Source: Luteipulveratus flavus
Lineage (GTDB): Bacteria > Actinomycetota > Actinomycetes > Actinomycetales > Dermatophilaceae
DNA length: 64,000 nucleotides
NCBI RefSeq assembly: GCF_029439465.1
Contig: NZ_JAROAV010000057.1
Location: forward strand, 40,301-104,300
Reading direction: 5' to 3'
In this document: piece by piece, positions 46,999-49,062 of the stretch
Numbering within the stretch: the first letter of the stretch is position 1
How the letters are laid out: each line of letters starts with the position of its first letter
The notes under the pieces: model-generated
Seen by the model: only the letters and a program-made list of their open reading frames with translations
Databases searched by the model: none
What the model was told of the DNA's origin: nothing
Translations under genes and position numbers: made by a program

Positions 46999-49062
46999 TC
47001 AGCTCTCGTCGGCGTGCGTCGCCGGCCCGGTCGGGGTGGTCGGGACGGCGTCGCCGGGGTGGGCGCCATCGGTCTCCAGCCTGTGATCAACGTCACCCGA
47101 CGGGTGCTGCCCCGCGAGCCGCGCGAGCTCTTCCTCCACCACGCTCGGGTCGAGCTTGACGAACACCGGAGCGGGCTTGCCGACGGGCGAGCCGACCACG
47201 ACCGGATGACGCTCCCAGCGCGGCGTCGCCGAGTAGTCGCCGGTGATGATCGGGTACGGGCGGTCGTCGTCCAGGTCGCGGACCTGCTCGGTCCGCGGCA
47301 TCGGCATGAACTCGCCCTCGCCGCCGAGCACCAGGTGCACGCGGTTCGCGGCGTGCGGCAGGAACGGCGCGAGGATCGTGTTGAGGTCGCTCACCAGCTG
47401 CGCCAGCGTGTGCAGGATCGTCGCCAGCCGCTCCTGCTGCGACTCCTCCTTCAGCTTGAACGGCTCGGTGTCGGAGACGTACTTGTTCGCCTCGCCGACC
47501 AGCCGCATCGCCTCGGCCAGCGCTGCCTTCTGCCGGTGCTTGCCGACCAGGGCGCCCACCGAGCCGAAGCCGTCCGCGACGGTCCGGAGGACCTTCTCGT
47601 CGACGTCCGCGAGCGGGCCCGGAGCGGGGATCTCGCCGAACTTCTTGTGGATCATGCTCGCGGTGCGGTTGACCAGGTTGCCCCAGCCCGCGACCAGCTC
47701 GGAGTTGTTGCGCTGGACGAACTCCGCCCAGGTGAAGTTGGAGTCCTGCGTCTCCGGACCGGCCGCCGAGATGAAGTAGCGCAGCGGGTCCGGGCCGTAC
47801 CGGGCGATGACGTCCTGCACGTAGATGACGTGGCCGCGCGAGGTGGAGAACTGCTTGCCCTCCATGGTCAGGAACTCGCTGGAGACCACCTCGGTCGGCA
47901 GCCGCAGGTCGCCGTACGGCCCCGGCTCGCCGCCGCGTGCGCCCTTGCCGTCGTACGCGAGCAGCTCCGCCGGCCAGATCTGGGAGTGGAAGACGATGTT
48001 GTCCTTCCCCATGAAGTAGGCATGTCTCGCTCCTGCGTCGCGATTCATGCCTACTTCCGATGTCTTTGGGGCTTCGCTCCTGCGGTCGGGGGTGCCTCCT
48101 TCGTCGACTCCCCCGACCTCCGTCGGCTGCGCCGAGTCCGCTGGCGTAGCGGTCGGGTTCGCGTGTCCGGTCGCTGCTGCGCCCGTGTTCCACCAGTCGC
48201 GCCAGCGGTCCTCGTCGCCGAGGCGGCGGGCCCACTCGATGGACGCGGAGAGGTAGCCGATCACCGCGTCGAACCAGACGTAGAACCGCTTGGTGTCCCA
48301 GCCCTGGACAGGGATCTCGATGCCCCAGTCGATGTCGCGGGTCATCGCGCGCGGCCGGATGTCCTCCAGGATGTTCTGGCTGAACTTGATGACGTTCGGA
48401 CGCCAGTCGCCGCTGGCCTCCCGCTCGTCCAGCCAGACGGTGAGCGCGTCCTTCAGCGCCGGCAGGTCCAGGAAGAAGTGCTGGGTCTCGATGAACTCCG
48501 GCGTCTCACCGTTGATCTTGCTGCGCGGGTCGATCAGGTCGGTCGGGTCGAGCTGGTTGCCGCAGTTGTCGCACTGGTCGCCGCGCGCCTCGGGGAACCC
48601 GCAGATCGGGCAGGTGCCCTCGATGTAGCGGTCCGGCAGCGTCCGGCCCGTCGACGGGCTGATCGCACCCCGCGTGGTCTGCTCGACCATGTAGCCGTTG
48701 CGGCGGATCGTCTCGAACATCTCCTGCACGACCGCGTGATGGTTCGCCGTCGTCGTCCGCGTGAACAGGTCGTAGGACAGGCCGAGGTCGGTGAGGTCCT
48801 GGACGATGACGGCGTTGTACTTGTCGACCAGCTCTCGCGGGGTCACACCCTCCTGATCGGCGAGGACGAGGATCGGGGTGCCGTGCTCGTCGGTGCCGCT
48901 GACCATCAGGACGTCGTGCCCCAGCATCCGCATGTACCGGCTGAACACGTCGGACGGGACACCGAAACCGGCGACGTGACCGATGTGGCGCGGGCCGTTG
49001 GTGTACGGCCATGCGACCGCCGTCAGGACCTTCTGCGGCGTCTGCGGGCTGGCGTTGCTCAT
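46999..49062 (-). CDS. metG: Methionyl-tRNA synthetase with an in-frame insertion
   Basis: 687 aa. HIGH-type motif in GPRHIGHVAGFG, four zinc ligands in CPICGFPEARGDQCDNC, and KFSTS-like motif TMEGKQFSTSRG, with an anticodon-binding domain at the C-terminus. It charges tRNA-Met. Between Asn292 (WRDWWN) and His347 (HAYFMGKDN) lies a stretch of 54 residues where relatives have a loop of a few residues. This insert is Pro/Thr/Gly/Glu-rich and its DNA (48025-48186) contains inverted repeats. The frame is kept and both flanks look normal, so the enzyme is presumably active. The start at 49062 is the family's natural beginning; a longer frame to 49473 is a shadow. Confidence 0.95.
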   Translation of the reverse strand: MSNASPQTPQKVLTAVAWPYTNGPRHIGHVAGFGVPSDVFSRYMRMLGHDVLMVSGTDEHGTPILVLADQEGVTPRELVDKYNAVIVQDLTDLGLSYDLFTRTTTANHHAVVQEMFETIRRNGYMVEQTTRGAISPSTGRTLPDRYIEGTCPICGFPEARGDQCDNCGNQLDPTDLIDPRSKINGETPEFIETQHFFLDLPALKDALTVWLDEREASGDWRPNVIKFSQNILEDIRPRAMTRDIDWGIEIPVQGWDTKRFYVWFDAVIGYLSASIEWARRLGDEDRWRDWWNTGAAATGHANPTATPADSAQPTEVGGVDEGGTPDRRSEAPKTSEVGMNRDAGARHAYFMGKDNIVFHSQIWPAELLAYDGKGARGGEPGPYGDLRLPTEVVSSEFLTMEGKQFSTSRGHVIYVQDVIARYGPDPLRYFISAAGPETQDSNFTWAEFVQRNNSELVAGWGNLVNRTASMIHKKFGEIPAPGPLADVDEKVLRTVADGFGSVGALVGKHRQKAALAEAMRLVGEANKYVSDTEPFKLKEESQQERLATILHTLAQLVSDLNTILAPFLPHAANRVHLVLGGEGEFMPMPRTEQVRDLDDDRPYPIITGDYSATPRWERHPVVVGSPVGKPAPVFVKLDPSVVEEELARLAGQHPSGDVDHRLETDGAHPGDAVPTTPTGPATHADES
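48025..48186. repeat. Palindromic element inserted within metG
   Basis: The non-conserved segment of metG. A 12-bp inverted repeat (48013-48024 with 48046-48057) and a 9-bp one (48084-48092 with 48110-48118) fold into hairpins. One arm of the first is native metG sequence. It resembles a small palindromic mobile repeat that happens to be open in this frame. Exact borders need an uninterrupted homologue. Confidence 0.6.

Follow-up and report, generated by a model that had tools for sequence, protein, structure and literature searches.

Introduction

In 2002 Ogata et al. reportedly described the Rickettsia palindromic elements (RPE), palindromic DNA that is read in frame in genes. In this paper we analyse an in-frame insert in metG, the gene for methionyl-tRNA synthetase (MetRS), in a stretch of 64,000 nucleotides from Luteipulveratus flavus, here called the window. 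The insert resembles RPE in being a palindrome read in frame within a housekeeping gene and, by prediction, tolerated in the protein. It differs from them in having no close second copy in its genome and in stems that differ between species.

Three further systems are comparable in part. The intragenic GTAG/CGTC REPs are, like the metG insert, short palindromes, some of them inside genes and often encoding 20-30 residues, but that paper nowhere uses the word Actinobacteria (PMC3733652). Template switching has been proposed as a source of matched multi-base changes in stems, and such changes in both arms are also seen in metG; that work concerns RNA genes, whereas metG codes for protein (PMC8794818). 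Nematomorpha likewise have inverted repeats inside protein genes with both arms coding, but these palindromes are mitochondrial, numerous and up to 284 bp long (PMC6649704). We found no report of the metG insert in the open-licence literature on actinobacterial REPs, in-frame palindromic elements and MetRS palindromic inserts.

Our preferred explanation, to which we give modest confidence, is that metG holds a palindromic insert in frame, with a disordered surface loop as its predicted product, and that its arms are likely kept complementary by replication template switching.

An in-frame insert with two hairpins in metG

The start of metG at 49062 is a chosen one, and the mechanical open reading frame opens further upstream. 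The features of the locus are listed below.

46999..49062, minus strand: metG, methionyl-tRNA synthetase, 687 residues (P0001) and stop
48025..48186, minus strand: insert of residues 293-346, in frame and lacking in most relatives
48084..48118, minus strand: hairpin H2, loop GACGAAGGA; present in G002 too, missing from G001
48058..48080, minus strand: conserved tail GGAGCGAAGCCCCAAAGACATCG, variant forms in all six H3 genomes
48013..48057, minus strand: hairpin H3, arms 48040-48057 and 48013-48030, loop GACGCAGGA
48007..48012, minus strand: host codons Met351-Gly352 (ATGGGG), adjoining H3

An earlier note on this DNA had described 54 extra codons between WRDWWN, ending at Asn292, and HAYFMGKDN, starting at His347, which stay in frame at a site where relatives have a short loop. 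Its coordinates and counts are correct, the frame is open without a stop codon on the minus strand, and a short loop is indeed found in 46 of the 53 family genomes read. The insert is thus an open read-through in a conserved gene whose relatives lack it, and its translation is predicted from the sequence. The window's MetRS has 83% identity with the L. halotolerans enzyme and 85% with the enzyme of L. mongoliensis (P0002 and P0007), and its alignments with solved MetRS structures break at residues 293-346. The third-position GC content (GC3) is 0.67 for residues 293-347 versus 0.96 for the remaining metG.

In an AlphaFold2 model of the MetRS (40 sequences, pLDDT 81.6) residues 295-342 have a pLDDT below 50 and lie between a helix at 288-291 and a strand at 346-352, which opens YFMGKDN. 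The insert is therefore predicted by the model to be a disordered surface loop, which may be the kind of place that tolerates such an insert.

The insert holds two hairpins with the same loop, GACGNAGGA. H2 is the upstream one on the coding strand and consists of the inverted repeat GGTCGGGGG...CCCCCGACC. H3 has arms of 18 nt that are 89% complementary and reads GAAGTAGGCATGAATCGC-GACGCAGGA-GCGAGACATGCCTACTTC on the coding strand, where the order of the 3' part is tail, H3 and ATGGGG. Two inverted repeats, as the earlier note had it, do exist, but the larger palindrome reaches 12 bases past the start that the note gave for the insert. Its 3' arm takes in host codons, the final six bases being those of Tyr349 and Phe350, and both residues are invariant in an alignment of 40 sequences.

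Taxonomic distribution of the insert

Among the 53 family genomes, six carry an H3 insert (G000, which is the window's genome, G001 and G002, which are placed in the same genus, and G026, G011 and G106) and one, G020, carries a different insert. Short loops are seen in other genera, for example WWNDPEALSYYF. The insert was found in none of the best 80 named actinobacterial MetRS loci among the matches listed, a set from which near relatives may be missing. Further carriers among the protein matches listed are Dermacoccus abyssi (P0006), P0003, P0004, P0005, P0008 and P0121, the last with a short insert, TGGAQKTSEVRMERADEGGPRQAYF, that is little beyond the H3 peptide. Across 186 family genomes the core tail pattern occurs only in metG, in five genomes (the tail of G106 has more mismatches and was missed). 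A pattern running from tail to loop occurs at 22 places in 21 of the 186 genomes, of which three are in metG, one is beside rpsD in G020 and 18 are elsewhere. An insert shared by close relatives at similar identity had been proposed as the mark of something other than a dispersed element. Five relatives do have the site and the hairpin, but their stems differ in sequence.

The H3 frame is open in five genomes. In G011 (L049, about 2341-2528) it shifts across the hairpin, whose arms differ by one base. Ribosomes are known to bypass a segment in T4 gene 60, and the frame change in G011 could be taken to mean that the metG segment is spliced out or bypassed by the ribosome or an RNA process. We consider this highly improbable, as the five other H3 genomes keep the segment in frame with no stop, and so does P0006, the protein of D. 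abyssi, a close relative of G011. For the same reason the frame change of G011 may stem from an error in sequencing or from a recent mutation.

In a MetRS tree of 41 rows, built with the loop left out of the alignment and with some forks weakly supported, the insert occurs in three Luteipulveratus rows, in P0121, in Dermacoccus and in the G026 group, with non-carrier lineages between them. The nearest neighbour of P0121 is G021, which has no insert, and G020 lies elsewhere on the tree. This interspersed distribution requires losses, transfers or repeated gains. As we read the tree, it calls for about four gains or losses if the insert was gained several times, or for four losses after a single gain. 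The tail that the carriers have in common points to one origin of the H3 insert, while a dispersed repeat in the metG of G020, described below, argues for a second, independent event.

Dispersed palindromic repeats in the family

The family has a dispersed palindromic repeat with the consensus GTCCCCGCGAAGTATCGGAGC-GAGGAACGA-GCGGAGAACTTCGTGGGGTG. Its exact gapped pattern was found at 31 places in 7 of 13 genomes (G020 10, G006 9, G222 6, G001 2, G049 2, G002 1, G013 1) and was absent from G000, G026, G011, G106, G021 and G018; the reversed control gave none. When up to 3 mismatches were allowed in a variant pattern, it was found at 17 places in 4 of the 13 genomes, again with none in the control. 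Of the ten G020 copies, one sits in the metG of that genome, in frame and in the same loop, and with respect to the gene it is oriented opposite to H3.

We made a covariance model, R2, of 31 dispersed copies, with no copy from metG and none from the window's genome; its E-values are rough. R2 matches the metG insert of G020 (56.5 bits, E 7.8e-12) and one place in the window's genome, C17:88499-88548 (L258:8499-8548; 63.6 bits, E 3.8e-13 in 1.98 Mb), which, judging from the flanking peptides, presumably sits between zwf and opcA. It does not recognise the H3 of the window (16.3 bits, E 0.41 in 0.49 Mb and E 1.6 in 1.98 Mb), which is thus not a proven member of the dispersed repeat. A second model, R1, was trained on the metG hairpins and recovers 10 of 15 dispersed-repeat loci (E 0.03-0.8), with two unrelated hairpins ranking higher; like the R2 score of H3, this speaks against our explanation.

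The motifs of R2 (loop GA[CG]GNA[CG]GA, ends GAAGTA...ACTTCRTGGGG) are present in the metG H3, where TACTTCATGGG belongs to the coding sequence of the host as well and pairing accounts for the 5' end. The metG loop variants GACGAAGGA and GACGCAGGA occur in the dispersed repeats, which favours our explanation, and the tail GCCCMRAAGACATC was not seen there, which goes against it. The ATGGGG that follows H3 resembles the 3' end of the repeat, and the Gly codon after Tyr-Phe-Met/Gln is GGG in 5 of 6 H3 loci versus GGC in 120 of 125 other matches, related and repeated loci being counted. A weaker tie between H3 and the dispersed repeat is suggested by the loop, the end ACTTC[AG]TGGGG and the Gly codon GGG. 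Another palindrome dispersed in the family, GAGTAGCGC-loop-GCGCGTATCGA, has the same loop or variants of it; it occurs at 18 places in G026 and 15 in G006 and is present in 11 of 186 genomes, with 0 in the control.

The insert had been suggested to be a dispersed element that is read through as protein, like RPE. A DNA search of the whole genome with the insert gave no close second copy; the next best place (E 0.0013, 80% over 45 bases, about C20:44888-44932) is a hairpin with the same loop and lies outside the 2.04 Mb loop sample used below. Together with the R2 result, this goes against the dispersed part of the suggestion for the window's insert. The part that stands is the palindrome in frame in metG, and in G020 the metG insert is itself a copy of a dispersed repeat, one of ten pattern copies. 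The window's insert works like an RPE, but it is not a demonstrated dispersed element in its own genome.

Two other repeats were also noticed. G020 has a shortened R2 match near the 3' end of metG (L052:3343-3372, 28.6 bits). In G026, GACGAAGGAGC occurs in identical stretches 87 bases apart at three places (L189, L192, L195).

Paired changes between the hairpin arms

H3 is found in six genomes of three genera, and its arm sequences differ between them but stay complementary. Compared with the window, the other carriers have different stems, similar ends and nearly the same loop. In the six sequences 89.5% of cells are paired versus 68.1% after shuffling, 13 of 21 pairs are changed on both sides, and covariation is 0.524 versus 0.161 when shuffled. 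None of 500 shuffles reached any of five pairing measures, in a comparison of few, related sequences that ignores kinship. When the partner is slid by 1 to 3 columns, pairing falls to 32-44%. The mean folding energy is -30.0 kcal/mol for a genome's own arms and -16.2 for arms exchanged between species, and only the true one of the 720 possible arm assignments reaches so low an energy.

G011 and G106 belong to one genus (Dermacoccus by protein P0006), and between them the entire inner arm is replaced on both sides with near perfect complementarity. Such wholesale replacement fits block copying better than single paired substitutions. In the dispersed-repeat copy of the window's genome, two adjacent pairs depart from the consensus on both sides. 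As this copy apparently lies between genes, its paired changes suit a mutational view. In the mechanism that we prefer, a replication template switch would recopy one hairpin arm from the other and so change both in one step.

Paired arm changes do not by themselves separate template switching from selection on the hairpin. The main rival explanation, which we regard as rather unlikely, is selection for an mRNA (or DNA) structure; the hairpin might, for example, make translation pause after one half of the catalytic domain and before the other. The covariation of the arms would be expected from such selection, and the stem, the unusual codons, the drop in GC3 and the Shine-Dalgarno-like AAGGAG in the loop point the same way. 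The rival has to explain how 46 of the 53 genomes read manage without the hairpin. The loop is also not constant, being GACGCAGGA in the window and GACGGAG in G106, and this variation weakens the case for the AAGGAG element.

Stability of the hairpins

Folding stability bears on this rival in both directions. We recoded the H3 peptide synonymously in the five in-frame genomes, leaving out the out-of-frame G011, and very few of the recodings reached the stability of H3. It was equalled by 6 of 2000 in the window's genome, 69 of 2000 in G002, 7 of 2000 in G001 and 0 of 2000 in both G026 and G106. This is what selection for structure would give, but the whole insert of the window is not unusually structured: 462 of 500 synonymous recodings were at least as stable, the recodings being more GC-rich than the insert itself.

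A third explanation is an ordinary protein loop, specific to the clade and with much Pro, Thr, Gly and Glu, in which the inverted repeats are by-products of composition. The unremarkable folding of the whole insert agrees with it, as do the predicted disorder and the lack of a close genomic copy. Similarly strong hairpins are also not rare in the genome. H3 is among the 19 strongest of 284 hairpins in 464 kb but not the top one, the 18 others have 16 or more pairs, and a few other 51-base windows of metG are about equally stable. The synonymous recodings, the arm exchange and the shuffles speak against a mere composition effect, which is hard to reconcile with paired changes, and a true repeat copy sits in the same loop of G020. 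Furthermore, the loop GA[CG]GNA[CG]GA occurs 534 times in 2.04 Mb of the window's genome, 2 of these occurrences sit on a stem of at least 8 pairs, and the metG insert holds both. The notable point is this coincidence in one insert and not the rate of loops on stems, which is not enriched (1 of 290 for the reversed-loop control, 0 of 237 and 0 of 666 for two others). We therefore consider an ordinary loop improbable. An Rfam search returned nothing relevant, with one chance match.

Possible origin and implications

In our explanation the window's insert would have begun as a REP/RPE-type repeat related to the dispersed one, and would be an old insertion in a permissive loop. The repeat end ACTTCATGGGG would have coincided with the host codons Tyr-Phe-Met-Gly. 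Selection on Tyr-Phe might then hold the 3' arm in place at its outer end and leave the inner arms to drift together, and the loop would be tolerated because it is disordered. A more far-reaching reading, which we put forward tentatively as a possibility, is that this section of metG evolves as a self-copying palindrome in which the conserved Tyr-Phe codons anchor one arm and replication copies it into the other, so that new protein sequence would arise as the reverse complement of the adjoining stretch while the loop can bear it, and that palindromic repeats entered the same loop at least twice, in opposite orientations.

If true, protein-coding palindromes would extend to Actinobacteria and to an aminoacyl-tRNA synthetase, and the carriers would offer a natural multi-species series for telling template switching from hairpin selection. 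Long paired changes in a coding gene would then need not imply a functional RNA.

Hairpins at rpsD and other palindromes

One idea about the source of the metG insert is that it derived from a hairpin at the 3' end of rpsD. A CTCCTTCGTC-loop hairpin is found at this position in 3 of 26 genomes (G020, G021, G026), and most of the others have different palindromes there. At L323 (G026), L325 (G021) and L332 (G020) one arm of this hairpin is the end of the reading frame, which we take to be rpsD from its peptide. Downstream of rpsD in L332, GATGTCTTTTGGGCC lies beside the hairpin and is similar to the metG insert's tail (GATGTCTTTGGGGC).

Further long palindromes, whose loop contains CATG, were observed at L265:3448-3500, L258:757-809 and L252:17264-17318, and two of them have the common stem GTCTGTCCGG...CCGGACAGAC.
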